Part shown: positions 4,208 to 51,885 of the stretch, in pieces
How positions within the stretch are numbered: position 1 is the first letter of the stretch
Layout of the letters: every line of letters begins with the position of its first letter
Source of the DNA: a virus
Length of the DNA stretch: 64,000 nt
IMG/VR virus record: IMGVR_UViG_3300036944_000550
Span: 32,536 to 96,535 of that record
Reading direction: 5' to 3' (one strand)
Translations under genes and position numbers: made by a program
Notes under the pieces: generated by a model
Database searches by the model: none
What the model was told of the DNA's origin: nothing
What the model saw: the letters and a program-made list of their open reading frames with translations, nothing else

Positions 4208-4872
4208 GAAGCGTCTTCACCTGAGATATCTTCAATCATTGACCGCCAGATTTCTAGATGCGGTACAACATATCCTAGTGTCAATCTTTTAGCAGAGTTA
4301 CCGCAGCAGTGGTATACAATTTTATTCGGATCGCTACGATCACCGAAATGACCAACCTTACATGACCAACCGATAGGATCAACCATAGTTACGATTTCCT
4401 TTGTAACTGGATCCAAGTAGCGAAAGTATCCACCATTTTCTTCTGTATTGTAAGTAATCAGAATATTATATCCTGATGCATTCCAATTGGTATGCCAACC
4501 CATGAAACCATTTTCGGGATAATAGGTAAACACCGCATTGTTTCTTGCACCAAGATAACTCATTATCTCAGAATTCGTTGCTTGCTGTCTTCTACCATAT
4601 TCGGTTGGAAACCATGTTTGTCCATGTGCCTGAGACATGTCAGTACACCATGCAACATCAGGGAAACCAACATGTCGCTCACCTTTACTAACGATATGAT
4701 TAAGATACTGTTCATCAGTAGCAGTTTCCATATTCAATCCACCTCGACGTATTTCTTGATGCCTTTCTGGACCCAGCACGAGATGTTGATCATTTTGAGC
4801 AAAGAACCATTCTGTGAATGGATCTAAAATATCACTTAGTTCTTTAGAAACTGAATTTGTAAATTGTAGCAT
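4195..4872 (-). CDS. 2OG-Fe(II)-oxygenase-like protein with HxN variant
   Basis: The C-terminal half looks like a double-stranded beta-helix oxygenase: FMGWHTNWNASGYN (His127, Asn129), then GGYFRYLDP, a distal VYHCC (His188) and KRLTLGY (Arg196), in the order HxD...H...R of the Fe(II)/2-oxoglutarate family. The iron-binding Asp is replaced by Asn, so activity is uncertain. 225 residues, third gene of a short - strand operon whose sigma70 promoter lies at 6059-6087. Alternative: a cupin-like protein that is no longer an enzyme. Confidence 0.45.
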   Translation of the reverse strand: MLQFTNSVSKELSDILDPFTEWFFAQNDQHLVLGPERHQEIRRGGLNMETATDEQYLNHIVSKGERHVGFPDVAWCTDMSQAHGQTWFPTEYGRRQQATNSEIMSYLGARNNAVFTYYPENGFMGWHTNWNASGYNILITYNTEENGGYFRYLDPVTKEIVTMVDPIGWSCKVGHFGDRSDPNKIVYHCCGNSAKRLTLGYVVPHLEIWRSMIEDISGEDASHFS

Positions 4873-4882
4873 GTGTGTCCTG

Positions 4883-5578
4883 TTAATCTAATAAAGAATG
4901 TGGAATTGTATAATGATAAATCACTACTGGTCGACCCTGCAATTCTTCTTGTTTATATCCGGAAACAAAGTTCCATCTGGCATCTGGATCAGGGAATCTG
5001 GCAGTTTTAACGCCAAAGTCGAAATGATTTAGGAGTCTCCACATTGTGAATGTGTCCCACTGCAATGCTGATTTGGGATAATGTTTACGATCCCATCCTG
5101 GTTTATTCTGTTCCCAGTACTCGTCATACCATGCACGCATGAGTTTCAATGTTTGTTCATTGTTTCGGTAGATAAACAATCCACAGTGCTCAGTCATTTC
5201 TTCTGTGTCAGATAACTTAGTCAGTGCTGCGTTATACGGGCGATTAGCAGTAAAGAGGATATCTACATCTTTGGGGATTTGATCAAAGATCTTTTGGATG
5301 TCTTCATGCTCAACTTCCATGTCACAATCCATGTAGGTTGTTAAGTCATACGGAGTTTGATCAAGCGCCCAAAGTTTCGCTCGTTTATCTCTTGGGACAT
5401 TCTCAGTTACAACTGTGTCAAAGATTTCATAATCATCTGGTTGAACCCATTCCTCATGCGTGAAGAATGTTATTTTTGCATCAGGATAGAAATCGCGTAG
5501 AGATATAGCGGAATTTCTCGCCGCTCTATAATAACCTTTTCTTACCGTTGCAACATAAAGGAAACCATTATTCTGCAT
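4883..5578 (-). CDS. GT8-like glycosyltransferase
   Basis: FLYVATVRKGYYRAARNSAISLRDFYPDAKITFF is a typical N-terminal strand-helix of nucleotide-sugar transferases, and DLTTYMDCDMEV carries the DxD motif (Asp-Cys-Asp) that binds the metal and sugar nucleotide. About 231 residues, the usual size for small phage GT8-like enzymes. The ATG at 5578 is preferred over the upstream TTG at 5581. It overlaps the upstream gene end by about 11 nt, indicating coupling. Acceptor unknown; the location beside fibre genes suggests surface or virion glycosylation (inference). Confidence 0.7.
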   Translation of the reverse strand: MQNNGFLYVATVRKGYYRAARNSAISLRDFYPDAKITFFTHEEWVQPDDYEIFDTVVTENVPRDKRAKLWALDQTPYDLTTYMDCDMEVEHEDIQKIFDQIPKDVDILFTANRPYNAALTKLSDTEEMTEHCGLFIYRNNEQTLKLMRAWYDEYWEQNKPGWDRKHYPKSALQWDTFTMWRLLNHFDFGVKTARFPDPDARWNFVSGYKQEELQGRPVVIYHYTIPHSLLD

Positions 5579-38122: not shown

Positions 38123-38151
38123 GGGGGAGCGATTCGCTCCCCCAAGTTTTT
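38123..38151 (+). terminator. terminator between convergent operons
   Basis: GGGGGAGCG (38123-38131) pairs with CGCTCCCCC (38135-38143) around a 3-nt loop, followed by AAGTTTTT. It ends the tape-measure transcript. The stem is symmetrical and may also slow the gp32 transcript, though the - strand lacks a long T run. Confidence 0.85.
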
Positions 38152-39076
38152 AGTCATCAGCGAGACTCGAGAAGTAACTCATCGTGTCATCGTCACTGTC
38201 TTCTTTCCAAGGTGGCGAGTCATCCGTTGCCTTAGCAGCAGGTGCATTACGCATCTTGGTTTCGACAAACAGTTCATCTTCAGCATCAAGCGGATTAACC
38301 TTCTCAGCAGTTGCCATACGAGCACCACCACCCGTTAGAACAGTATTCATCTTCGCCTTCAGTTCATCATATGACTTGAAGTTCGAAGGATCTAGGAAGG
38401 TGGCAAGCGAATGTGCATTCTTCCAGACCTGCTCCAACTTATCCTCATCTTCATCAAGAGGAGTTGGACCATCGAATTCTGACTTATCGTAGTTACGGTA
38501 ACCTTCAACCTGACGAATGCGCAACTTAAAGTTAGCACCTTCCCAAAGGTCAAATGGGTTGACTGGTTTCTCATCCTCAAAGGTTGGTTGCATTACATCC
38601 TTGATCTTGTCAAAGATTTTCTTACCATACTTGTAGAGGAATACCTTACCTTCATTCTCAGGATTCGCGGGATCGCGAAGAACAAGAACGTTGGAGATGT
38701 AGGAAAGACGACGCTTTTGCTTACGAGCGATTTCCTTATTCGCTTCGATACCTGAGTTCCAAAGTTCGGAGTTCAGTTCGCCGACGGGATCTGGTTTGTT
38801 GATTGTGGTCAACGAGTTTTCGATATACCACTTTCCAGTTGGACCCTGGAAACCATGATCAAAGACGCGAACCCAAGGAAGTTCTTCACCTGCAGGAGCA
38901 GGAAGGAAACGAAGCACTGCTTGACCATTACCTGCCTTATCGACAGTTGGTTTCCAGAAGCGATCGTCGTCGCCACGCTTTTCATTTGATGGGTTTGCGA
39001 TTGACTCAACTGCCTTCATGAGTGAGTCAAAGTTTCCGCGATTCTTGCGGAGTTCTGATAGTGAATTAATTGACAT
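38150..39076 (-). CDS. 32: single-stranded DNA-binding protein gp32
   Basis: 308 residues (T4 gp32: 301). RFWKPTVDKAGNGQAVLRFLPAPAGEELPWVRVFDHGFQGPTGKWYIENSLTT and GKVFLYKYGKKIFDKI are gp32 hallmarks, with an acidic C-terminal tail (DDSPPWKEDSDDDTMSYFSSLADD) that contacts replication partners such as gp59 and gp43. Coats ssDNA in replication, recombination and repair. Follows gp33, gp59 and a small ORF on the - strand; a possible late box lies at 39174-39181 and an early promoter was not found nearby. Confidence 0.95.
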   Translation of the reverse strand: MSINSLSELRKNRGNFDSLMKAVESIANPSNEKRGDDDRFWKPTVDKAGNGQAVLRFLPAPAGEELPWVRVFDHGFQGPTGKWYIENSLTTINKPDPVGELNSELWNSGIEANKEIARKQKRRLSYISNVLVLRDPANPENEGKVFLYKYGKKIFDKIKDVMQPTFEDEKPVNPFDLWEGANFKLRIRQVEGYRNYDKSEFDGPTPLDEDEDKLEQVWKNAHSLATFLDPSNFKSYDELKAKMNTVLTGGGARMATAEKVNPLDAEDELFVETKMRNAPAAKATDDSPPWKEDSDDDTMSYFSSLADD

Positions 39077-39280: not shown

Positions 39281-39883
39281 CTAACAGACCACTTGGCCTT
39301 TCTCCTTATTCCATAGTTCAAAGAATTTTGTTCGATCTATACGAACGAACGGACGGTACTTAATTATCAAAAGATTTAAATCCTTCCAGATAAAATCGTT
39401 CAATAATTCAGTAGTTACATTATACCTGAAATCTAGTAGTTTGTCAAGTATAATAACTGTTTCTAGTGAAATTTTTTTACCAAGTAACATCTTAATTAAT
39501 AATGGATGTTGATTGCTAACAGATACAAAAGGATCTTGCTCTGACTTCTCTGCTTCTAATAGCAACCGACTAATATCATCTGTGAACATGTAAGACAATC
39601 TATCTTGTCTACCTTTCCACTTTTCATAGATGTCATCAGAATCTGCACTAAAGATGCCGCCGTTCTTATCTCCTGCTGCAAAGTTTGCAACAAAGTAGTT
39701 GATAATTTCTTGACGAGCGACGAACTTCTTCGCCAGTTTCCTGAATAGGAAAACATCTCTTCGTTTTAAGAAGGCAGATTCTGATGACTTGACAGCACCC
39801 TTGGTTTTGGTGATGTCATATGACTCAGTAGTGAAATGTAGTTTAAGTGCCATGTAGAGGCGATAAACTTCATATGCTTCCAT
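39281..39883 (-). CDS. 59: gp59 helicase loader
   Basis: 200 residues (T4 gp59: 217). MEAYEVYRLYMALKLHFTTESYDITKTKGAV is the near-invariant start of gp59, followed by the two-domain helical core (FRKLAKKFVARQEIINYFVANF). It loads gp41 helicase onto gp32-coated ssDNA forks. The start overlaps the gp33 stop (TAATG). The order gp33-gp59-gp32 matches T4. Confidence 0.92.
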   Translation of the reverse strand: MEAYEVYRLYMALKLHFTTESYDITKTKGAVKSSESAFLKRRDVFLFRKLAKKFVARQEIINYFVANFAAGDKNGGIFSADSDDIYEKWKGRQDRLSYMFTDDISRLLLEAEKSEQDPFVSVSNQHPLLIKMLLGKKISLETVIILDKLLDFRYNVTTELLNDFIWKDLNLLIIKYRPFVRIDRTKFFELWNKEKGQVVC

Positions 39884-40152
39884 TAAAGTGGTAATTTCCC
39901 GCCAGATTTACGCTTTAGCATATTTAGTTCTTCTGCTTCTGCTCGAATCTTTTCTTTTAGAGAAGTGGTGAGTAATACAGCAACAGATTCCATCTCAATA
40001 TCTTTTTTGATACAATAATCAAGAAGAATATCCAAACAAGGAATACCATTCTCGAATGATTGTTTCTCCACGAATTGAGAGAACTCTATTGCTGTATTAT
40101 ACTCTTTCGTAATTAAAAATTCATTGGTTACTTCAGAACCATCCATTACCAT
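39883..40152 (-). CDS. 33: gp33 late transcription co-activator
   Basis: About 89 residues from the ATG at 40152 (ATGGTAATGG); an upstream TTG at 40158 is a weaker option. FSQFVEKQ..., a helical core and ESVAVLLTTSLKEKIRAEAEELNMLK match gp33, which bridges RNA polymerase beta-flap, gp55 and the gp45 sliding clamp at TATAAATA promoters. Its presence explains the late boxes in this window. The C-terminus ends GGKLPL rather than a clear clamp motif. Confidence 0.8.
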   Translation of the reverse strand: MVMDGSEVTNEFLITKEYNTAIEFSQFVEKQSFENGIPCLDILLDYCIKKDIEMESVAVLLTTSLKEKIRAEAEELNMLKRKSGGKLPL

Positions 40153-40163
40153 GTTCAAAATTA

Positions 40164-40769
40164 TTATCCTGCATAAAAAATGTGATCACCGATTTTCGCA
40201 ACACGCTTCAGATTCCATCTTGGATTAACATAATCCGCATGGTAGAATAACACGTTACGTCCAAGTATACCCTGATTTGCCCCAGAAAGCAATACTTTTT
40301 CAGCAACTTTTTTAGATTCTGAATATTGCTGGGCGCTGCGTATGCTCTTGTTACCTTCGCATACCCATGAGAACTGGCAAACACGCTTAGTTCTCTGATA
40401 CACGACTGCGCATACAGACTTCGGGAACTTGGGACTTTTTACGCGATTGATAGTTACTGCAGCAACCGCCAACTTTCCTTGAGTTGACTGGTTTCCTGCC
40501 TCGTAGTAAATATTGTCTGCTAGACATTTCAATTCGCGATTATTTGCTAAATGTATGTTTTGGGTTTCAATTTTTCTTAATGCGGTTTTCTTTTTTTCTT
40601 CTGCCGCATCTTCTTTAATCTCTTGGATTACTTCTACAAAGCCAAGGGAGTATTCCCTTGTATCTCTCTCGATAGCATCTTCAGCATATGAATTGATTCC
40701 ATATAAACTATATACTAATACTGTAAAAATCGAAAGAAACTTGAAAAACTTCTTGTTAAAGGAAGTCAT
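40164..40769 (-). CDS. secreted SleB-type cell wall hydrolase (endolysin candidate)
   Basis: 201 residues. A signal peptide (KKFFKFLSIFTVLVYSLYGINSYA, cut near residue 29) is followed by a charged helix and a SleB/Hydrolase_2 domain from about residue 78: LADNIYYEAGNQSTQGKLAVAAVTINRVKSPKFPKSVCAVVYQ (catalytic Glu in YYEAG). Cleaves peptidoglycan, so likely host lysis via the Sec pathway. A late promoter at 40895-40902 and a structured 5' leader precede it. Start ATG with GGAAATAAG ribosome site. Confidence 0.85.
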   Translation of the reverse strand: MTSFNKKFFKFLSIFTVLVYSLYGINSYAEDAIERDTREYSLGFVEVIQEIKEDAAEEKKKTALRKIETQNIHLANNRELKCLADNIYYEAGNQSTQGKLAVAAVTINRVKSPKFPKSVCAVVYQRTKRVCQFSWVCEGNKSIRSAQQYSESKKVAEKVLLSGANQGILGRNVLFYHADYVNPRWNLKRVAKIGDHIFYAG

Positions 40770-40789
40770 CTTATTTCCTAGTACTTGTT

Positions 40790-40915
40790 AAACTTGAGAG
40801 GGTATTAACCAGTGACTCCCCACACTGGGTCGTAAACGACAAAATCCCCCGATGCTTTGCTGTTACCAGATCGGCACCGAGGGATTCATATAACTATTTA
40901 TAGATTTTGAATCCC
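40790..40915 (-). promoter_or_regulatory. structured 5' leader of the wall hydrolase gene
   Basis: From the late promoter to the ATG lies about 125 nt of folded RNA. AATCCCTCGGTGC pairs with GCATCGGGGGATT (13 bp, capped by CTG-GTAA-CAG), then GTCG-TTTA-CGAC and CCAGTG-N8-CACTGG. The AATCCC strand can instead pair with GGGATTCA just upstream (8 bp with TGAATCCC), so two folds exclude each other. Could be an attenuator, riboswitch or RNA processing site. Confidence 0.5.
40895..40902 (-). promoter_or_regulatory. T4-type late promoter for wall hydrolase-gp33-gp59
   Basis: Exact TATAAATA on the - strand in the loop of the GGGATTCA/TGAATCCC inverted repeat, between the tmRNA and the hydrolase gene. 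Confidence 0.7.
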
Positions 40916-41001
40916 TATGTTAACTCGTTCCACCCGTTTAATCGAACGGTTGATAGTTTTATTCTGTTTCGAGGAAAAACTATCAAAAACCCAATGCTAG
41001 C

Positions 41002-41037
41002 TTATGCAGCTAGAGCAAAGGCAACGTTATCGTTTGC
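41002..41037 (-). other. tmRNA tag reading frame
   Basis: GCA resume codon, then codons for NDNVAFALAA and TAA. The AND start and the ALAA end match proteolysis tags recognised by ClpXP-type proteases. Confidence 0.88.
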
Positions 41038-41117
41038 ATTTACAGTTTGTGGCGCTTTGCCAGTCAATCAGTCTCGGTATTCCTATTACACGAAAATCGA
41101 ATTCCAAGGTCACCCCC

Positions 41118-41187
41118 GTCATAGATACACTTTTCAGTTATTCGGTTGCTATAGCAATATCCGAGCCACTCAGGGCAAATGTATCTA
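41118..41187 (-). other. tmRNA intervening segment removed on processing
   Basis: 70 nt between the encoded CCA end and the 5' G run. It is flanked by a perfect 8-bp inverted repeat that would extend the acceptor stem and guide processing. Confidence 0.75.
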
Positions 41188-41256
41188 TGGTGGAGGTGGA
41201 GGGAGTCGAACCCTCGTCTTTCCGCTTTTATTGTCAACTGTCAACAACTGATATAT

Positions 41257-41287
41257 TATTTATACTATACATAACGTAGAAAGTCAA
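41257..41287 (-). promoter_or_regulatory. overlapping sigma70 and T4-type late promoters for tmRNA
   Basis: TTGACT (41282-41287), 17 nt, TATAAA (41259-41264). The same bases form a perfect TATAAATA late box (41257-41264). The tmRNA can thus be read by unmodified host polymerase early and by the late complex. Confidence 0.75.
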
Positions 41288-41292
41288 GTGTT

Positions 41293-41487
41293 TTATGCTT
41301 CCCAAGGAAGTTTTTTTCCTACTGAACCCCACTTACCAATGGGGCAAGATGCGCGATTAAGTTTAGTTTTTGCGGGCATGAGACAACCGCATTTCATACA
41401 CAGTTTCGCTTTTAAAAACTCACACTGCCTACAAATTTCCATCCGTTGTTCGGATAGTTCACTCACTGGTATAATACCCATTTTCAT
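41293..41487 (-). CDS. small Cys-rich (zinc-ribbon-like) protein
   Basis: 64 residues. MGIIPVSELSEQRMEICRQCEFLKAKLCMKCGCLMPAKTKLNRASCPIGKW has CxxC and CxxCxC clusters of a small zinc ribbon and is a very common companion of the exonuclease in T4-like marine phages. Overlaps the upstream exonuclease 3' end by 29 nt. May bind DNA or regulate a partner protein; role unknown. Confidence 0.7.
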   Translation of the reverse strand: MKMGIIPVSELSEQRMEICRQCEFLKAKLCMKCGCLMPAKTKLNRASCPIGKWGSVGKKLPWEA

Positions 41488-42142
41488 AGTAGTCGCGAGT
41501 GCGAAGAAGTTTCTTCACCCAGTCATCACGTTTCTCGATGAATACCTGAGGAACGTCATCTTCAACTGCGATTAGGATTACTAACCACGGAACAGGAATC
41601 CCAGTACGTTCTTCATACATGATAGCATATGCTGCTGTCTGCATGAAGTAACTTTCAATGTAAGATTTAGACTTTGACTTATTTGAAGTCTTAAAGTCGA
41701 TGACAGCACGTTTGCCTTGATACTCAGCGATACAGTCAACTCGGCCTGCCATACGCAGATGATCACTGTAAAGCGCAAGTTCCTGACAATGGATGTTGCT
41801 GATTGGTTCTAGAATAGATTTAAACTTATTGAACATCTCAACGTCAAGCATCGATGCTTTAACTTCATCAATCTTGTCACTAACGTTTTCGTTCTTGAGA
41901 TATGTCTCAGTTAGCGTGTGAATCTTAGTTCCACGAGTTGATGCTTTACTTGAGATCTTATTCGCTTCTTCTTCACCAACACGCTTTCGCCAAGCGGCAA
42001 TAGAGTCGCGGGATAGAACTCCAAGAACGGTGGTGGCAGAAGGATATGCAACGCCACTGGCATTTACATAAACTCTACCACCATCTTCGCTCGTAGTTGA
42101 CTGGGCAAAATCTTCATATTCATATATTGTTTCAAACATCAT
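41459..42142 (-). CDS. PD-(D/E)XK exonuclease (MGME1/RecB-like)
   Basis: 227 residues. PSATTVLGVLS, STRGTKIHTLTE (His75), QELALYSDHLRMAGRVDCIAEYQGKRAVIDFKTSNK (Asp136, Asp149-x-Lys151) and a late QTAAYAIMYEE are the motifs of RecB-type single-strand exonucleases. T4-like cyanophages carry the same enzyme. Likely trims DNA ends in replication or recombination. Own sigma70 promoter at 42149-42176. Confidence 0.88.
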   Translation of the reverse strand: MMFETIYEYEDFAQSTTSEDGGRVYVNASGVAYPSATTVLGVLSRDSIAAWRKRVGEEEANKISSKASTRGTKIHTLTETYLKNENVSDKIDEVKASMLDVEMFNKFKSILEPISNIHCQELALYSDHLRMAGRVDCIAEYQGKRAVIDFKTSNKSKSKSYIESYFMQTAAYAIMYEERTGIPVPWLVILIAVEDDVPQVFIEKRDDWVKKLLRTRDYYENGYYTSE

Positions 42143-43898: not shown

Positions 43899-44423
43899 CT
43901 ATTTATTAAAATGTGTTGAAAAAACTATGTGAAGTCTGTTTGCAGAAGTGGAAGCATTTATTGCAGTATGTTTAACGTTGGTTTGTAAACTATACAACCT
44001 ACCAATATCTGGCATTCGTTCCACCTTGTCATCTACAACAAAGAACGCATTAGTATCAGTGATCAGAGGTATGTGATAACGAATAGAATCAGGGTCAACA
44101 TGATAACTCAAACAGGTTATCGGTGTCATGTTCATAAATCTAATACGATCTATAGTTAGGTAACCATTAGAATAATTATATATTTGATTTTCTAATTTTT
44201 TAATTTCTGGGAAAATATGCTGCGTATAATCCTGCCGCTTGAGGATATTTTGATTACGCAGAGTTCCCGATCCTAGTTGGAGTTTTTCTTCAAAACTTAG
44301 CGCCTCATCACATTCTCTATATTTGAGATTATGCTGTTTCATAACTGGTAATTCTGACCACAGTTTAATGTATGGTGCAGGATCTATAGTAAATTCTAGT
44401 TCTTTAATATACCTTGACATCAT
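43899..44423 (-). CDS. aspartyl/asparaginyl hydroxylase-like 2OG-Fe(II) oxygenase
   Basis: About 174 residues from ATG-ATG at 44423; an in-frame start at 44447 overlaps the carbamoyltransferase further. CLSYHVDPDSIRYHIPLITD (His108, Asp110), NVKHTAINAS (His152) and ANRLHIVF (Arg163) give the HxD...H...R set of the Asp_Arg_Hydrox family. All metal ligands are present, unlike the protein at 4195-4872. Hydroxylates a protein, peptide or small molecule with 2-oxoglutarate and O2. Coupled to the carbamoyltransferase by overlap. Confidence 0.75.
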   Translation of the reverse strand: MMSRYIKELEFTIDPAPYIKLWSELPVMKQHNLKYRECDEALSFEEKLQLGSGTLRNQNILKRQDYTQHIFPEIKKLENQIYNYSNGYLTIDRIRFMNMTPITCLSYHVDPDSIRYHIPLITDTNAFFVVDDKVERMPDIGRLYSLQTNVKHTAINASTSANRLHIVFSTHFNK

Positions 44424-45885
44424 ACATGCCTTGAAACATTGCAGCATCTTTTACATCATTCACCATCGGAAATCCTTTGATGTTCAGACTAGTATTCAGC
44501 AACATCGGACAACCTGTTTCTTCATACCATCTTGTCAACAATTCAAACAATCCTGGATGCTGCTGCTCGTTTACAGTTTGGACGCGAGATGTGCCATCAA
44601 CGTGAATGATAGCAGGGAACTTTGTAGGAAATTTACATCTTGCAGTAAACTGCATGTAAGGGGATACTTCAACTGGCATGTCAAAATACTCTGCTGCATG
44701 TTGCTCAAGGATGACTGGTGCGAATGGTCTAAACTTTTGTCTGCGCTTGATTGCATTTACTCTATCCTTAATGTCTGTCCTAGATGGATCAGCGAGAAGA
44801 CTTCGGTTACCAAATGCTCTCGGACCAAACTCTGCCTTTCCACTAGCAACTCCAACTATACCCTCTTCAAGCAAAGAAGTCAATAGATTTTCTACAGGAT
44901 ATTCGGTATCAATATTCTCGCCGAGATATGGACCTTGCCAGTTTAGTTTTCTGCGGTTGTTTGCAGTAATAGCACCGAGAGAACTACCAGCGTCTCCTGG
45001 ATTCGGTATAATCCAGATATTATCGAAATATTTTCGAGCAATATGATTGGCAGAGCAGTTAAGTGCGCAACCCCCTGATAATACTAGATTATTTTGGAAA
45101 GTGTCTTTCATCTTTGCGCGAACGAGCAGTTTCTCGAATTCTTCCTCATAAATCTTCTGTGCTGATGCGGCAAGATCGTAGTAATCAGGATCTTCACTTT
45201 TCAACCACCACTTACATCCGCGATGTAGATTTACTTTCTCATAGAGTTCGCGCATTTCCCAATAATATTTGTCAGGATTACCATATGCTGCCATACCCAT
45301 GAGGATATACTCGTCTTCGTTTGGTTTCAATCCAACTCTGTCTGTTATAGCAGAATAGAATAAACCGAGCGATTTCGGATAATCCATGCTCCACTGTTTC
45401 TTCATCTCATTACCAGCACATGTCCAAATAGAAGCAGTATCAAATTCGCCGATAGCATCAATTACTAATGCAGTTGCAGTGTAAAATTTAGATGTGTAAT
45501 ATCCAGCAGCAGCATGCGACTCATGATGGTTCGCATATTCTATTGGTGCAGTTATACCAAATGATTTTAGATACTTCTCGGCACTGAATCTAGTCAATCC
45601 TTGCCCCGTAAGAAACCTACGCATTGCACGCAATCTCGGTTTTTCATACCAGTGGATTTTTGCTGGTTTCCCAAACTTCAATGCTACATCAATAAGATCA
45701 GTATTTAGATGCTTGTCATTTTTAATTCCACTGTATCTCTCTGCATGAGAGGCGAAGAGTATTTCTGCACCAGCAACAACAGTCAATGCAGCATCATGTG
45801 CTCCTGCAGATATACCCCATTCAATCATAGATAAACGGATCGCTCTTTCGTATCTTATTGATTCTTCTTCGTAGTTTATATGCAT
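44404..45885 (-). CDS. carbamoyltransferase (NodU/TobZ family)
   Basis: 493 residues. ISAGAHDAALTVV, ANHHESHAAAGYYTS (His120, His121, His124), MGMAAYG, LVLSGGCALNCSANH, PNPGDAGSSLGA and the C-terminal EFGPRAFGNRSLLADPS ... RQKFRPFAPVIL are the full motif set of O-carbamoyltransferases, which make carbamoyl-AMP from carbamoyl phosphate and ATP and transfer the carbamoyl group to a hydroxyl. All motifs intact, so active. Targets in the family include sugars and antibiotics. Here the acceptor may be a product of the adjacent radical SAM/hydroxylase steps or a modified DNA base (inference). Confidence 0.9.
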   Translation of the reverse strand: MHINYEEESIRYERAIRLSMIEWGISAGAHDAALTVVAGAEILFASHAERYSGIKNDKHLNTDLIDVALKFGKPAKIHWYEKPRLRAMRRFLTGQGLTRFSAEKYLKSFGITAPIEYANHHESHAAAGYYTSKFYTATALVIDAIGEFDTASIWTCAGNEMKKQWSMDYPKSLGLFYSAITDRVGLKPNEDEYILMGMAAYGNPDKYYWEMRELYEKVNLHRGCKWWLKSEDPDYYDLAASAQKIYEEEFEKLLVRAKMKDTFQNNLVLSGGCALNCSANHIARKYFDNIWIIPNPGDAGSSLGAITANNRRKLNWQGPYLGENIDTEYPVENLLTSLLEEGIVGVASGKAEFGPRAFGNRSLLADPSRTDIKDRVNAIKRRQKFRPFAPVILEQHAAEYFDMPVEVSPYMQFTARCKFPTKFPAIIHVDGTSRVQTVNEQQHPGLFELLTRWYEETGCPMLLNTSLNIKGFPMVNDVKDAAMFQGMYDVKVY

Positions 45886-46880: not shown

Positions 46881-47748
46881 GTAATTCTTTCATTATATTT
46901 TGGGCATGTTTTTCTTGCGATAGTTTTCCTGGGTGCTGTAAATCCCTTGCTTGTTTGTTATCCAAATAGTTAGGGAATATTTCTTCTGCTATGTTATGTG
47001 GCGCAACAATTTGCAACAATTCATGTGTTGGCATATCCCACGTAGTAAATAACACATTAATATTTCTCTCAGCAGCAATATCCAAGATATAATTAATGTT
47101 AAACGATAATTTAGATAATTGATAGTTTTCATGAATACCAAAAAATGGTTCCATGTATTTCTTGTGTACGTTGCTCCTAGAATTCGGAATCAAATCAGTT
47201 ACTATTCCATCCGGATCTATAAAAAATTCTCTGTAAACATGTGGTAACGTAAATACTGCTATATCAAGGTTGACAAATTTTGTAAACACAGAAAAAATTC
47301 TTGTAATTCTCTCGATGGATGATCCTCCTTTACCAACATTGAAAATTCTGGATTGGGTCAACTCTTCAAGATAATGTGGATGTATCTCGTGTGAAGGCAA
47401 TCCATCCCCGAACGTAAAACTATCACCAAAGCATCCTATCTTCTTCTTATCAGTTACAGTTAACTCCCATTTGTCTCTGAATAAATATGGATTTAAATGA
47501 TACTTCCAAGAATCCTGTATTAAACCTTGTTTAATAAGTTGCTCTTCAAAGTAATTGGTGTATTCCAGATAGACATCACGATAGGGAATTTGTTCTGGTT
47601 TTGGGTATGGCAACACATATCCCAGCACTCTAATATCATCTAAAGATAAAAATTTATGGTGCGAAATATCAGTTAACGCTTCTGACACAGATGGATCTCT
47701 GTAAAATTTTTTTTCTAATCTTATCTTTTGTAATATATCATTGTGCAT
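46861..47748 (-). CDS. SGNH/GDSL-type hydrolase
   Basis: 295 residues. KIGCFGDSFTFGDGLPS holds the block I GDS motif with nucleophile Ser110. NVGKGGSSIERI is a block II-like Gly region, and HPGKLSQEKHAQNI ends with the general-base His. A ~100-residue N-terminal extension precedes the domain. Family members remove or add acyl groups on glycans or lipids. Overlaps the radical SAM gene upstream by 11 nt. Substrate unknown. Confidence 0.75.
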   Translation of the reverse strand: MHNDILQKIRLEKKFYRDPSVSEALTDISHHKFLSLDDIRVLGYVLPYPKPEQIPYRDVYLEYTNYFEEQLIKQGLIQDSWKYHLNPYLFRDKWELTVTDKKKIGCFGDSFTFGDGLPSHEIHPHYLEELTQSRIFNVGKGGSSIERITRIFSVFTKFVNLDIAVFTLPHVYREFFIDPDGIVTDLIPNSRSNVHKKYMEPFFGIHENYQLSKLSFNINYILDIAAERNINVLFTTWDMPTHELLQIVAPHNIAEEIFPNYLDNKQARDLQHPGKLSQEKHAQNIMKELHDRTWI

Positions 47749-48997
47749 CTATAAACTCCGGATTAACTGCATAGAAATTTTGATTTCTAATATTATCAAG
47801 TCGATTAATTTTGTTTTTGAAATTATCCATCAGGTGACTATTGTCAGAAGAATACATGAAATCTATAATAGACGACCATCCAGAATACGGTATTCCCCAG
47901 TCAGATTGTAATTTCATACCATATATATGAATTTTCTCAGCACATCTATCCTTAAGAAGTTTCGGCATTACCGTAATACTGTATTCACTTGGAACGAACA
48001 GAGGATTTAAGTGGAATCTATCTGACCAATAATTTTCAATATTAATTTCCCGACCGCGAATATCAGTCAAAGGAATCAAATCGTTACTATGTAGAGTATT
48101 ATGGAGTTCTGTTAATCTGAAGATATTAAGAATACTGACAGTAGGATGGATCCAATAATCTGCAGACCTGCTTGCGCGAATTCGTTTAATATTCTCGAAT
48201 GTTTTATTCCAGTTTCCACGATAACGGATATACTCAAACGCATCACCTACGCCATCAATGCTCAAACTCAGATGGACATCTTTAAACTTCTTCCAGTAAT
48301 CTAGAACATTATATTTTTCTTTGCCAAGAGTAGTTCCATTGGTACTATATCTAAGTCGGACATTATGCCTTCCCTTTTCATCTAGTAGTTGAAGAATATT
48401 CCAATGTTCCGGCATTATGAGAGGTTCGCCACCCGCAAAATGTATCTGTTGCATACTACTAAGATTTCGTTCGATTTCTTCCCAAAATAAAGAAGATTTT
48501 TCTAGAGAAATAAGACCCAATTCAGTTTCATCATTTGGATGTAATACTTTCCAATCTTTACTCCACGAAGTGCTGAACAATGGTGCACATGTTACACATG
48601 CTAGATTACACTCATTACTAAAACGAAAGTCCCAATACAATAATCTTGCTTCGGAAATTGTTCCATCTGGTTGTGTAGATTGCACTAAATCTGCTACCGC
48701 ATCATACCACTGAGAATTCATCCCTGCGCGCATGGTGTTCAAACCATGATCGCCTTTATCTATGCAGCGATGACATTGTTCTGGTAAAGGTTTACCATCC
48801 AACATATCCTTTCTCATTTTCTTTGCGCTGTCACTATTCATAATCTCAAGAAATGATTGTTCTTTAACATTTCCAAAAGAATATTCAGATTTCAATGGAG
48901 TTTGGCAACAGGCATATGCTCTACCATCATTGATGACATGCAAGTGTGACCATAGTGCTGAACAGAATGTGGATTCGTTTTTATAATCTCTAGTCAT
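47738..48997 (-). CDS. radical SAM enzyme with Cys-rich N-terminus (copy 1)
   Basis: 419 residues. NECNLACVTCAPLFSTSW carries the CxxxCxxC cluster motif (Cys130, Cys134, Cys137). QQIHFAGGEPLIMPEHW (GGE motif), STNGTT and SLSIDGVGDAFEYIRYRG complete the radical SAM barrel. The N-terminus (FCSALW, ACCQTP, EQCHRC) has extra Cys that may hold an auxiliary cluster, like twitch/SPASM proteins. Most divergent of the three tandem copies. Start overlaps the upstream stop by 8 nt. Confidence 0.88.
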   Translation of the reverse strand: MTRDYKNESTFCSALWSHLHVINDGRAYACCQTPLKSEYSFGNVKEQSFLEIMNSDSAKKMRKDMLDGKPLPEQCHRCIDKGDHGLNTMRAGMNSQWYDAVADLVQSTQPDGTISEARLLYWDFRFSNECNLACVTCAPLFSTSWSKDWKVLHPNDETELGLISLEKSSLFWEEIERNLSSMQQIHFAGGEPLIMPEHWNILQLLDEKGRHNVRLRYSTNGTTLGKEKYNVLDYWKKFKDVHLSLSIDGVGDAFEYIRYRGNWNKTFENIKRIRASRSADYWIHPTVSILNIFRLTELHNTLHSNDLIPLTDIRGREINIENYWSDRFHLNPLFVPSEYSITVMPKLLKDRCAEKIHIYGMKLQSDWGIPYSGWSSIIDFMYSSDNSHLMDNFKNKINRLDNIRNQNFYAVNPEFIDAQ

Positions 48998-50504
48998 AGT
49001 TGCCCAATGGGTCTCCGATATTGGAAGAATCCGGAGTAAGAATCCAACCTTCTTCTTTTGCGATGCGCATCAGATCTTCATCATTAATATATTGCTTTGT
49101 GCTGTCACCATTAATCAAATTGGTCTTATCTTTCAATTTTGTATCTGGCAATGTTTGATACCAGTCACGAAGAATTACCGGAAACGTCTCAACAAGATTT
49201 TTGTTTCTGCGTTGATCATATTGACTGTAGAATGTTTTAAAATCTCTCCAAAGAGTAATTTTATTGCTGGTTCTTCTGTGCGGTGCTTCTACAATATCAA
49301 GATAATCAATCAATCGTTCGATGCTTACCTTCTCAAAATCATTCCATAATGGACGTTCTTTTGCTTGCTCATACCATGTGAGTAGTTTCTCTCGACAATA
49401 ATTCTTAATATGATCAGGAAGCGCAAGAGGACTTTGGAAACTGGGGAACCGCAGTAGATTCAAACTCAAAGTAGGTGTTTTAGAGTTTGTCATTTGTTTA
49501 ATTGAATATATATCATCCATAAATTCAGTTATGTCAAATAAACATAGACTGTTGATGGTCATCATAATATTCAATCCCTGAACATTACCTTCTGTGATTA
49601 GACGAATAAGGTTCTTTCTCCAAACAACATAATCAAAACCATCACGAATATACTCTGCATGATCTTTAGATGATTCACAACTAGTATATACTGAGAAACT
49701 TTTGATATTTTTACTTTTCTCAATCAATCTATCGATGGTTTCATCTTTAGCAATCAAGTTGGTATTGATAGCAAATGCCATGTCACTATCTTGTTTCTCA
49801 AACCAATCAAGTAGTCTCCATGTTTCAGGACTCATCAGCGGTTCGCCACCAGTAATCCTTAACTCTTTCAGTGTATCAGCAAGACCGTTGTCCCACCATT
49901 TCCAGAAAGCATCAATATACGGATTGGTATCATCCTTACTAAATGGTTCGGTCCAAGAACCATCTTGCTCAAAGGCACCTGCACCATCTGACACTAAGTT
50001 TTGATATGGTCCATTCTGTTTAATATCTCTTGCCCATGAGGTAGAGAAACTAGCATTGCAATATGAACAAGCAAGATTACAAGTTCTATCAAATGCAATC
50101 TCAAAAGTCCGGAGGGATGCATCATCCTTCCAATCGCTCGTATATGCTTTTTCGAGATCATCTTCTGTGTGGATTATAGATTTGAATACTCGATCGCTGA
50201 CATTGTCTCTGCCAATATCTTCAATTTTCCAGCAATACTCACACTCAGAAGGTCGATCACCATCCTGCATCATCTTACGCATTGCTTTTTTATGCATAGT
50301 ATTATGGATTGCAGAAGGATTGTTAGCAACCTCTTCAAGTGGAATCTTATGTGCGGGTGGGTGATGACAACTTGCTGTTGTCCCACTACCCAACCAAGTG
50401 GTCGCATTATACCATTTTGCGCCGCAAAAACTTTTAGACTTACTATCTAAAACTCTGTTACGGTATTCCAGTAGTGTCTCATCAGGTTTCTTGAACGAAG
50501 TCAT
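48990..50504 (-). CDS. radical SAM enzyme with Cys-rich N-terminus (copy 2)
   Basis: 504 residues from the ATG at 50504 (TAATATGAC after the previous stop). TCNLACSYCNASFSTSW (Cys142, Cys146, Cys149), LRITGGEPLMSPETW and INTN..., with N-terminal FCGAKW, SCHHPPAHKIPLEEVANN and ECEYCWKIED. The N-terminal Cys pattern is almost the same as copy 3 (SCHHPSPHKIPLEELAND, ECEYCWKIED), showing recent duplication. Likely modifies an organic radical substrate, perhaps peptide or sugar. Confidence 0.88.
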   Translation of the reverse strand: MTSFKKPDETLLEYRNRVLDSKSKSFCGAKWYNATTWLGSGTTASCHHPPAHKIPLEEVANNPSAIHNTMHKKAMRKMMQDGDRPSECEYCWKIEDIGRDNVSDRVFKSIIHTEDDLEKAYTSDWKDDASLRTFEIAFDRTCNLACSYCNASFSTSWARDIKQNGPYQNLVSDGAGAFEQDGSWTEPFSKDDTNPYIDAFWKWWDNGLADTLKELRITGGEPLMSPETWRLLDWFEKQDSDMAFAINTNLIAKDETIDRLIEKSKNIKSFSVYTSCESSKDHAEYIRDGFDYVVWRKNLIRLITEGNVQGLNIMMTINSLCLFDITEFMDDIYSIKQMTNSKTPTLSLNLLRFPSFQSPLALPDHIKNYCREKLLTWYEQAKERPLWNDFEKVSIERLIDYLDIVEAPHRRTSNKITLWRDFKTFYSQYDQRRNKNLVETFPVILRDWYQTLPDTKLKDKTNLINGDSTKQYINDEDLMRIAKEEGWILTPDSSNIGDPLGNYD

Positions 50505-50505
50505 A

Positions 50506-51885
50506 TTAATCTTTCCACTCTTCAAGTAAGTTCACATACATCGGGAATGTAATGCTGAAGTTCTTATTTCTTCTTATATCATATTCGTTTACAAATTTAA
50601 CGAAGTCACTACGATATTTATCTGCAGTTGGAGTAGTCCTCAGATAATCACAGAATCTTTTAATTTGATCCCATTCTTCAAGATATAGTCTTGCCCACTG
50701 TGATGATGAATGATACTTCAACCAACCTTCACAATATTTCTCAATCTTATCTGCATACTCTATTCTGGTTTCAGTGTTGAGTAGTGTTGCCTGTAAGTAT
50801 GGAGGATACCGTAAGTAGTTAACACTCAACGGAACTCTGTTTTCTTCGGTATTTCTGTTAAACAGAACACGCAGATCCATAACATGCTCGACGAATTCTG
50901 CAAAAGATGGTAAACTTAAAATATTAATCGTTGTCATAATGTTAACACGGAAGTTGGTTTCGCGTAGAATGCGTTCTACGTTTGCATACCACTTCATGTA
51001 GTTAATACCATCACGAGCATACTCTGCTTGTGCGAAGGTGCTCTCCGCGCTAGTATAAATTTGAATATCTTTGACTTTACCCTCGAGAGAGTTAATTGTC
51101 TCAATCAACTTATCAACTAACTGATCGGGCACACCCAAGTTTGTATTAATACCAAGTTCTATGTCAGCAGGAGGGTTCTGTTTGATCAGTTCCATTGTTT
51201 CCCAGAAATCCTTGCTCATAGTGGGTTCACCACCAGTCATACGAAACACTTTCACATGCTTCATCGCTTCTGGGAACCACTCTTTAAATGCTTCCGAGTA
51301 TGGATTATGTTCGCTGTTCTTATATGGGAATCGTCCTACCTGTTTCAACCATTCTAGATTACTTGTTCCGAATTGCGTAGGATATGGACCATTCTGTTTA
51401 ACGTCATCCATCCACTTACTAGAAATTTCAGGTGAACAATATGCACAAGCAAAATTACAAGCATTAGAAAACGAAACTTCAAGATATGTTGGGAATACAT
51501 TCGCATCCCATGCCGTATGCGCGATCTCATCAATCTTATCATATGACCACCATTCCGCAGTCTTGTAATGTCTGTCTGAAAAATACTCTGTATTGAGATC
51601 TTCAATTTTCCAGCAGTATTCACATTCAGATGGACGCTCGCCCTCTAGCATCTTCTTACGTTGCTGTTTCTTGAAAGAACTATTGCTCAACGCATTAATA
51701 TCATTCGCAAGTTCTTCTAGTGGAATTTTATGCGGAGATGGATGGTGACATGAATGATTGTAACCATTTTGCAAATATAAGGTTGTTTGCAACCATTTTG
51801 CTGCACAGAAAGAAGGACTTACTGCATTGATAACATCACGTTTCCTACCCAGTTCTTCTATTCGTTCTTCGTTCGGTATTATCAT
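50506..51885 (-). CDS. radical SAM enzyme with Cys-rich N-terminus (copy 3)
   Basis: 459 residues. NACNFACAYCSPEISSKW (Cys143, Cys147, Cys150), FRMTGGEPTMSKDFW, GINTNLG and IYTSAEST mark the barrel. N-terminal Cys block FCAAKW, SCHHPSPHK, ECEYCW is shared with copy 2. The start overlaps the methyltransferase-like stop as ATGA, so both are translated together. First of the three copies in transcription order. Confidence 0.88.
   Translation of the reverse strand: MIIPNEERIEELGRKRDVINAVSPSFCAAKWLQTTLYLQNGYNHSCHHPSPHKIPLEELANDINALSNSSFKKQQRKKMLEGERPSECEYCWKIEDLNTEYFSDRHYKTAEWWSYDKIDEIAHTAWDANVFPTYLEVSFSNACNFACAYCSPEISSKWMDDVKQNGPYPTQFGTSNLEWLKQVGRFPYKNSEHNPYSEAFKEWFPEAMKHVKVFRMTGGEPTMSKDFWETMELIKQNPPADIELGINTNLGVPDQLVDKLIETINSLEGKVKDIQIYTSAESTFAQAEYARDGINYMKWYANVERILRETNFRVNIMTTINILSLPSFAEFVEHVMDLRVLFNRNTEENRVPLSVNYLRYPPYLQATLLNTETRIEYADKIEKYCEGWLKYHSSSQWARLYLEEWDQIKRFCDYLRTTPTADKYRSDFVKFVNEYDIRRNKNFSITFPMYVNLLEEWKD

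Follow-up and report, generated by a model that had tools for sequence, protein, structure and literature searches.

A circularly permuted tmRNA gene of a T4-like phage and the apparent exchange of its intervening segment among related phages

The two-piece ssrA of Methylophilales phage Melnitz (MZ577097) was published in 2022 (PMC9004378). The available part of that report describes a survey of 18,146 genomes in which 53 of 133 distinct phage tmRNA structures were two-piece, locates ssrA directly behind an early promoter, and states that Melnitz infects a gammaproteobacterium, yet carries an alpha-like ssrA. The accessible description of a tmRNA database gives 79 bacteriophage sequences (PMC11915505), and a two-piece tmRNA works in Caulobacter, according to the accessible part of a further study (PMC3985003). 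Phage two-piece tmRNA at the locus considered here, in the order nuclease, ssrA and gp33, is already known from Melnitz and from Pelagibacter phage Mosig (MT647606).

The window analysed here is a stretch of 64,000 nt (G000:C1:32536-96535) from a metagenomic virus contig of 96.5 kb. Its minus strand contains, at 41,287-40,945, a circularly permuted (two-piece) tmRNA gene together with its promoter. The initial annotation had proposed a phage-encoded circularly permuted tmRNA, without giving the strand, and the proposal was borne out by ARAGORN, two covariance models, comparative evidence and the T4-type genes of the record (baseplate, gp32, gp33 and gp59). ARAGORN reported a permuted tmRNA (tmRNA*) at 40911-41282 on the minus strand with the tag ANDNVAFALAA. 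Covariance models had been named in the annotation as a check, and two Rfam models scored above their gathering cut-offs over the full model length: RF04321 (tmRNA_permuted) with 91 bits against a cut-off of 47 (41249-41002), and RF01849 (alpha_tmRNA) with 57.6 bits against a cut-off of 50 (41291-40952), a modest margin. Assignment to the alphaproteobacterial subtype follows alpha_tmRNA as the sole group-specific model listed at gathering score, with the same modest margin.

All features given below lie on the minus strand. The acceptor piece, with its T arm and CCA, lies ahead of the coding piece, and the ends of the two pieces pair as an acceptor stem; models, sequence and predicted fold agree with the earlier description on this point. 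The acceptor piece, the 3' half of the mature tmRNA, spans 41188..41250 with an approximate 5' end (the RF04321 alignment starts at 41249) and contains the T-arm (41215-41199), CACCTCC (41198-41192) and ACCA (41191-41188), all read from the sequence. The coding piece, the 5' half, spans 40945..41117, beginning with the GGGGGTG acceptor strand (41117-41111) and followed by RF01849 to 40952, with an approximate 3' end. Between the CACCTCC-ACCA end at 41188 and the GGGGGTG start at 41117 lies an intervening segment (IVS) of 70 nt (41118..41187), which is presumably removed on processing. The perfect 8-bp inverted repeat earlier assigned to this spacer was found again within 41187-41118. Its arms, TAGATACA on the 5' side (41180..41187) and TGTATCTA on the 3' side (41122..41129), form an IVS terminal stem in which compensatory change was seen across families. 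This end-pairing lengthens the acceptor stem, and the acceptor stem together with the spacer hairpin has a predicted fold of -37 kcal/mol. A second helix joins the two pieces, with GCGGAAA (41219..41225), from a region paired in the RF04321 alignment, as its 5' side and TTTTCGT (41090..41096), as read from the letters, as its 3' side. The tag frame ANDNVAFALAA and its TAA stop codon were placed by ARAGORN at 41002..41037, and a 3' pseudoknot-type hairpin, GATAGTTTT...AAACAGAA...AAAACTATC, lies at 40952..40984 with arms at 40984-40976 and 40960-40952.

Relatives of the gene were collected by an exact match to a signature located in the coding piece; 94 viral contigs had it and, with the window, this gave 95 loci. 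Both pieces are present in 93 of the 95, the window included; L052 and L062 are truncated by the end of the contig and lack the acceptor piece. Since the loci were drawn by a coding-piece signature, conservation at the 5' end of that piece is partly by selection. CACCTCCACCA and GGGGGTG were kept in 93/93 loci, and thus the G3-U70 wobble is kept. G3-U70 is the alanine identity pair of the tRNA-like acceptor stem, and the window gene has it in the pairing of GGGGGTG with CACCTCC. Every one of the 93 loci has a tag, a stop codon and an ALAA/RLAA end, the tag sequence itself taking several forms; a script found the tag ending in AA in 91 of the 93, and L070 and L104 read ...ALAA-stop by eye. The 3' helix was assessed by a per-sequence helix search over 91 loci (contig edges), and an arm of 6-11 pairs with changed letters was found in 25 of 27 distinct 3' regions, with 2 pairs only in L091 and L124. 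RNAalifold on a MAFFT alignment of 21 coding pieces gave a weak consensus with 2 pairs showing double change and did not recover the 3' helix, because MAFFT misplaces it. In a first scan of 28 contigs, ARAGORN reported a permuted tmRNA for 27, a recurrence that speaks against chance; L021 gave none, and this row was dropped.

The tmRNA gene lies among T4-type genes. Immediately upstream is a 64-aa DUF6171 protein (41293..41487; PF19668, 34.8 bits, cut-off 27), followed by a conserved upstream neighbour, a PD-(D/E)XK nuclease/exonuclease (41459..42142; PF12705) that occupies the same place in Mosig and Melnitz. Downstream lie a conserved SleB-like cell-wall hydrolase (40164..40769; PF07486), matched downstream of the tmRNA in 86/93 loci, the gp33 late-transcription coactivator (39883..40158; PF16805), the gp59 helicase loader (39281..39883; PF08993/PF08994) and the gp32 ssDNA-binding protein (38150..39076), whose nearest named relatives are those of Melnitz (56.6%) and the Pelagibacter phage HTVC008M (54.9%). 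For HTVC008M, the comparison covered the stretch that starts at gp59. The order nuclease, tmRNA, hydrolase, gp33, gp59, gp32 is common to distant relatives. Across 28 loci (Mosig and 27 contigs), the hydrolase was downstream of the tmRNA in 24 and the nuclease upstream in 23, several contigs ending too early. The retention of neighbour order across the phage group indicates that the tmRNA locus is old there and is no fresh capture from a host.

Several further features were observed around these loci. The spacer between the tmRNA and the hydrolase (40830-40915) holds an inverted repeat, GGGATTC...GAATCCC, with no Rfam family at E<=1 except a weak miRNA match. Elsewhere on the minus strand, the window encodes three adjacent radical-SAM domain proteins (47738-48997, 48990-50525 and 50506-51885; PHROGs) and a Nol-like carbamoyltransferase (44404-45885; PF02543, PF16861; PHROGs); a carbamoyltransferase is also encoded by HTVC008M, where it lies between gp59 and gp32. 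In L104, seven tRNA genes (Rfam; 4485-5291, minus) lie upstream of the tmRNA. A 181-aa ORF with an NPPW motif, presumably methyltransferase-like, lies between the hydrolase and gp33 in L010, L049, L055 and L059 and is absent from the window.

Judged from its sequence, the tmRNA gene has its own conserved sigma70-like promoter, TTGACT-N17-TATAAA(TA), at 41257..41287. A generic promoter scan omitted it, as that scan demands T as the sixth base of the -10 element. Of 38 distinct leaders, 36 have a TTGACA-like hexamer (at least 4/6) at a distance of exactly 17 nt before TATAAA; at each of the 41 other offsets scanned, it occurs in no more than 6. The -10 element overlaps a T4-late-promoter-like sequence, TATAAATA, which we take to be the T4 late-promoter octamer and which 61 of 91 loci share in this position (contig edges set this number for the hexamer and octamer counts alike). 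Because of this overlap, late transcription is possible too. A T4-late promoter as the sole promoter was considered and dropped, owing to the -35 element at its fixed place in nearly all leaders. Throughout the window, TATAAATA octamers numbered 10 on the minus strand (61142, 41264, 40902, 39181, 33220, 25552, 19086, 17074, 10470 and 7967) versus 1 on the plus strand (24084), some of them shortly before genes, and by their sequence they are likely T4-type late promoters.

The IVS varied greatly between loci. Over the 93 loci it measured 45-134 nt, and single-linkage clustering at 70% identity or more gave 25 unrelated families, of which 11 have a single member. Coding pieces matched at 98% identity or more in 441 pairs of loci, and 283 of these had IVSs less than 65% identical, the pairs not being independent; shuffled IVSs gave a background identity of 48% on average, with a 99th percentile of 56%. 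As a control, 28 Mesorhizobium-genus genomes were compared in the same manner, and of 58 pairs that reached 98% identity in the coding piece, none had IVSs below 65%. This control covers one genus, with 30 loci; the pattern failed to cut L159 and L160, and L128, L130 and L131, from other genera, were left out.

The flanks were compared over 89 of the 93 loci (contig edges, missing neighbours). Identity below 65% was found among 401 pairs in 248 cases for the IVS, 116 for the leader upstream of the promoter and 11 for the 100-nt downstream noncoding spacer. The IVS is therefore not the sole variable stretch: the leader above the promoter is often replaced too, and the downstream spacer hardly varies. 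When both noncoding flanks of about 100 nt were also required to be at least 90% identical, 74 of 206 pairs, again not independent, still had unrelated IVSs. Over 86 loci, more than one IVS family occurred in 4 of 14 sets with an identical hydrolase protein (matched stretch), one of which comprises the window (family F14), L023 (F15) and L005, L012 and L013 (F07).

The reverse pattern was also found. In 25 pairs the IVSs were at least 95% identical and the coding pieces less than 90%. The window IVS, single in the 93-locus set, is identical at 69 of 70 nt to the IVS of L188 and L189, the only others found in a core scan of viral contigs, and the coding piece there is 68% identical to that of the window. 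IVSs of family F04 occur in phages whose hydrolases are 98%, 82%, 48% and 43% identical to the window's. The F04 pattern lay within a tmRNA in 13/13 contigs, 11 by ARAGORN and two (L063 and L093) by sequence, and six IVS-pattern contigs all read CCACC...IVS...GGGGGTGA, confirmed by ARAGORN or by the 93-locus set (L063, L093). The IVS, expected to be the fastest-changing part, is the best conserved between these divergent tmRNAs, and the sequence comparison indicates that it moved on its own. Exchange of the IVS marks recombination between phages at a scale of 70 nt.

Despite this variety, the ends of the IVS pair. The first nine bases paired with partners near the end in 217 of 225 cells across the 25 family representatives; when 3' ends were swapped between families in 2000 trials, a mean of 132 and a maximum of 166 of the 225 cells were paired. 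Position 2 of the stem is C-G, G-C or A-T depending on the family. Pairing is kept while families use different pairs, which indicates that end-pairing is selected and the letters are not. Two size and content variants were observed as well. L193 and L194 have a permuted tmRNA with a 9-nt IVS (TAAACTTAT), whose near relatives L190-L192 have 127 nt, and a stretch resembling a T arm (GAGGTTCGAATCCTCC / TGGTTCGAATCCA) occurs in the IVSs of L047, L124 and L050, which gives the impression that part of a tRNA was incorporated.

An open reading frame was found in the IVS of 17 of the 93 loci and is absent from the window. In these loci (L044, L049, L054, L074, L078, L083, L086, L090, L095, L097, L105, L109, L110, L111, L114, L116 and L120) the IVS is 133-134 nt long and opens with AGAGGA, which is ribosome-binding-like, with an ATG 4-5 nt later. 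The frame (MVICSCRDIRDSQY...) covers 41 codons in the IVS and then continues through 16-17 codons of the tmRNA coding piece until it reaches its stop. Variants of the frame differ mainly at third codon positions (e.g. 11/14 and 10/13), and it is therefore probably read as protein. The predicted product is short and Cys-rich (CxC...CCxxC) and belongs to no Pfam family, with only sub-cut-off matches to unrelated families; its identification as a Bfd-type 2Fe-2S protein was set aside, having neither Pfam support nor a convincing phage match. In L188-L194, directly upstream of the tmRNA, relatives 63-66% identical were found as genes of 50 codons that stand alone and have a stop of their own, which suggests that a gene moved from next to the tmRNA into the IVS, or in the opposite direction. 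Excision of the tmRNA would remove the stop codon from the message for this protein. An ORF-bearing IVS would thereby tie protein expression to tmRNA maturation within one transcript.

SmpB (PF01668) was not found in the window's 96.5-kb record or in 8 further records, three of which are 162-164 kb long; the same search was positive in 12 of 14 control genomes. As no SmpB gene was found in these records, host SmpB is presumably used. The suggestion in the initial annotation that the gene may redirect ribosome rescue or stand in for the host's version would likewise involve host SmpB. The initial annotation had also taken the permuted form as a pointer to the host lineage, and this is more weakly supported than the identity of the gene: the alpha model is the only group-specific match, but alpha-like ssrA also occurs in Melnitz, with its gammaproteobacterial host, and the coding piece was matched in only 8 of 385 alphaproteobacterial genomes, each match being 28-54 nt. 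A host assignment by tmRNA similarity was rejected, as a pattern of 19 specified positions gave 11 matches in genome contigs, none with an ARAGORN tmRNA, which is consistent with chance. The window IVS was found in none of the 385 genomes, a weak result because this search had no positive control.

Other explanations were considered for the diversity of the IVS and for the role of the gene. Assemblers jumping between phages in the conserved halves might create apparent IVS diversity, and these halves, long and nearly identical between phages, are a setting for chimeras. However, particular pairings of lineage and IVS turned up repeatedly in separate metagenomes: one lineage carries F07 in L005, L012 and L013 and F00 in L054 and L109, and another carries F04 in L004, L017, L024 and L025 and F00 in L044, L074 and L095. 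In addition, the variants of the F00 reading frame follow the lineages. An assembly artefact is accordingly an improbable source of the diversity, although a chimera at the conserved halves may account for the window's own lineage-IVS combination, which was seen once, whereas other combinations recur in several samples. Still less probable is that a miniature mobile element, bounded by terminal inverted repeats and inserting at the CCA/GGGGG junction, forms the IVS. Its inverted-repeat ends and precise borders would suit such an element, as would near-identical IVSs in tmRNAs with coding pieces 68-79% identical, yet the repeats differ by family and are explained by pairing in the precursor. 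The patterns of two of the 25 families, searched in viral contigs, were found in tmRNA genes only (13/13 and 2/2 contigs), and these 15 of 15 contigs for two patterns differ from the copies elsewhere with target duplications that a miniature transposable element would leave.

As to role, the phage tmRNA could be a decoy that sequesters host SmpB, EF-Tu or alanyl-tRNA synthetase and does not serve rescue. The lack of an SmpB gene in nine records would accord with this, but a decoy would have no need of a tag, and every one of the 93 loci retains the tag, its stop codon and the ALAA/RLAA end; we regard this role as hardly probable. Diversifying selection deserves more weight, though it too seems doubtful to us. 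The IVS would then be kept variable by something that reads it (a host or rival-phage nuclease, CRISPR or an antisense RNA), or the excised hairpin RNA would act on the host or on rivals, and swapping would be adaptive. The 25 families, polymorphic within lineages with identical neighbours, speak for this explanation, as do the exchange of IVSs without exchange of flanks and the absence of divergent IVSs from the 58 Mesorhizobium-genus pairs. No reader of the IVS was found, however: inspection by eye of the longest ORFs on the same strand around the tmRNA at nine loci revealed no endonuclease. Drift plus recombination is the simpler account. Selection of this kind would alter only the account of the IVS; the identity of the tmRNA is unchanged. 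A bolder version, which we offer tentatively and think rather unlikely, makes the IVS a true cassette site between CCA and GGGGG, at which selection for variety would drive the exchange of short sequences, including some genes. In the ORF form, a neighbouring Cys-rich gene would have moved in, tmRNA maturation and protein expression would be mutually exclusive, and the tmRNA would rescue ribosomes on its own by-product.

We consider it probable, on the evidence of sequence, that the gene is a functional two-piece tmRNA of a T4-like phage with its own sigma70-like promoter and an IVS that is exchanged as a unit. The anatomy, the conservation, the compensatory end-pairing and the exchange of the IVS were observed directly, and from these we infer processing, charging, rescue, the use of host SmpB and the route of recombination. 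In the precursor, the acceptor stem would be continued by the IVS terminal stem. Host tRNA-processing enzymes would make two cuts, one behind CCA (41188) and one ahead of GGGGG (41117), the 70-nt IVS would be lost, and the acceptor and coding pieces would be held together by two helices thereafter. The tmRNA would be charged with alanine by virtue of G3-U70, and host SmpB would act as its carrier. During infection, it may free ribosomes stalled on broken messages, with the products tagged ANDNVAFALAA for host proteases. Because the IVS would be discarded, its sequence would be free except for end-pairing. Exchange between phages would most likely occur by recombination anchored in the conserved halves and, with the IVS passing as a unit, near-identical phages carry unrelated IVSs and distant phages identical ones. 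A spacer that is discarded yet swapped offers a natural experiment, in which the need of the precursor (end-pairing only) can be set against possible selection in phage competition.

Melnitz and Mosig are likewise T4-like phages with a permuted tmRNA in two pieces, and their gene order (PDDEXK nuclease, small ORFs, ssrA, gp33) places it as in the window. Only 41 nt of the Mosig tmRNA gene match the window's by blastn, and the tag of Mosig is GEDNFALAA versus ANDNVAFALAA in the window. A glutamine riboswitch is claimed for Melnitz in the available part of its report (PMC9004378); it has no counterpart in the window, where cmscan of 40700-41500 at E<=1 gave a weak miRNA match as its only entry besides the tmRNA. 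That same part of the report (PMC9004378) says nothing of IVS exchange in Melnitz or Mosig, and no mention of it was found in the literature searched, although an earlier one is possible, e.g. in Sharkady and Williams 2004. E. coli arfA, as described in the accessible part of its report (PMC10107115), is an analogy, in mode of working only, to the ORF-bearing IVSs of relatives, in that a stop-less message is tied to trans-translation; it differs in gene and in enzyme, and the ORF form is absent from the window. Mycobacteriophages such as Momo and LordLeafolot, from what their partial descriptions give, carry a tmRNA in a phage with myovirus morphology, like the window's phage. Their tmRNA is presumably of the one-piece form. 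The IVS itself sets the phage genes apart from the bacterial control, with 70 nt in the window and 45-134 nt among the 93 relatives versus 28-33 nt in the 28 Mesorhizobium-genus genomes.
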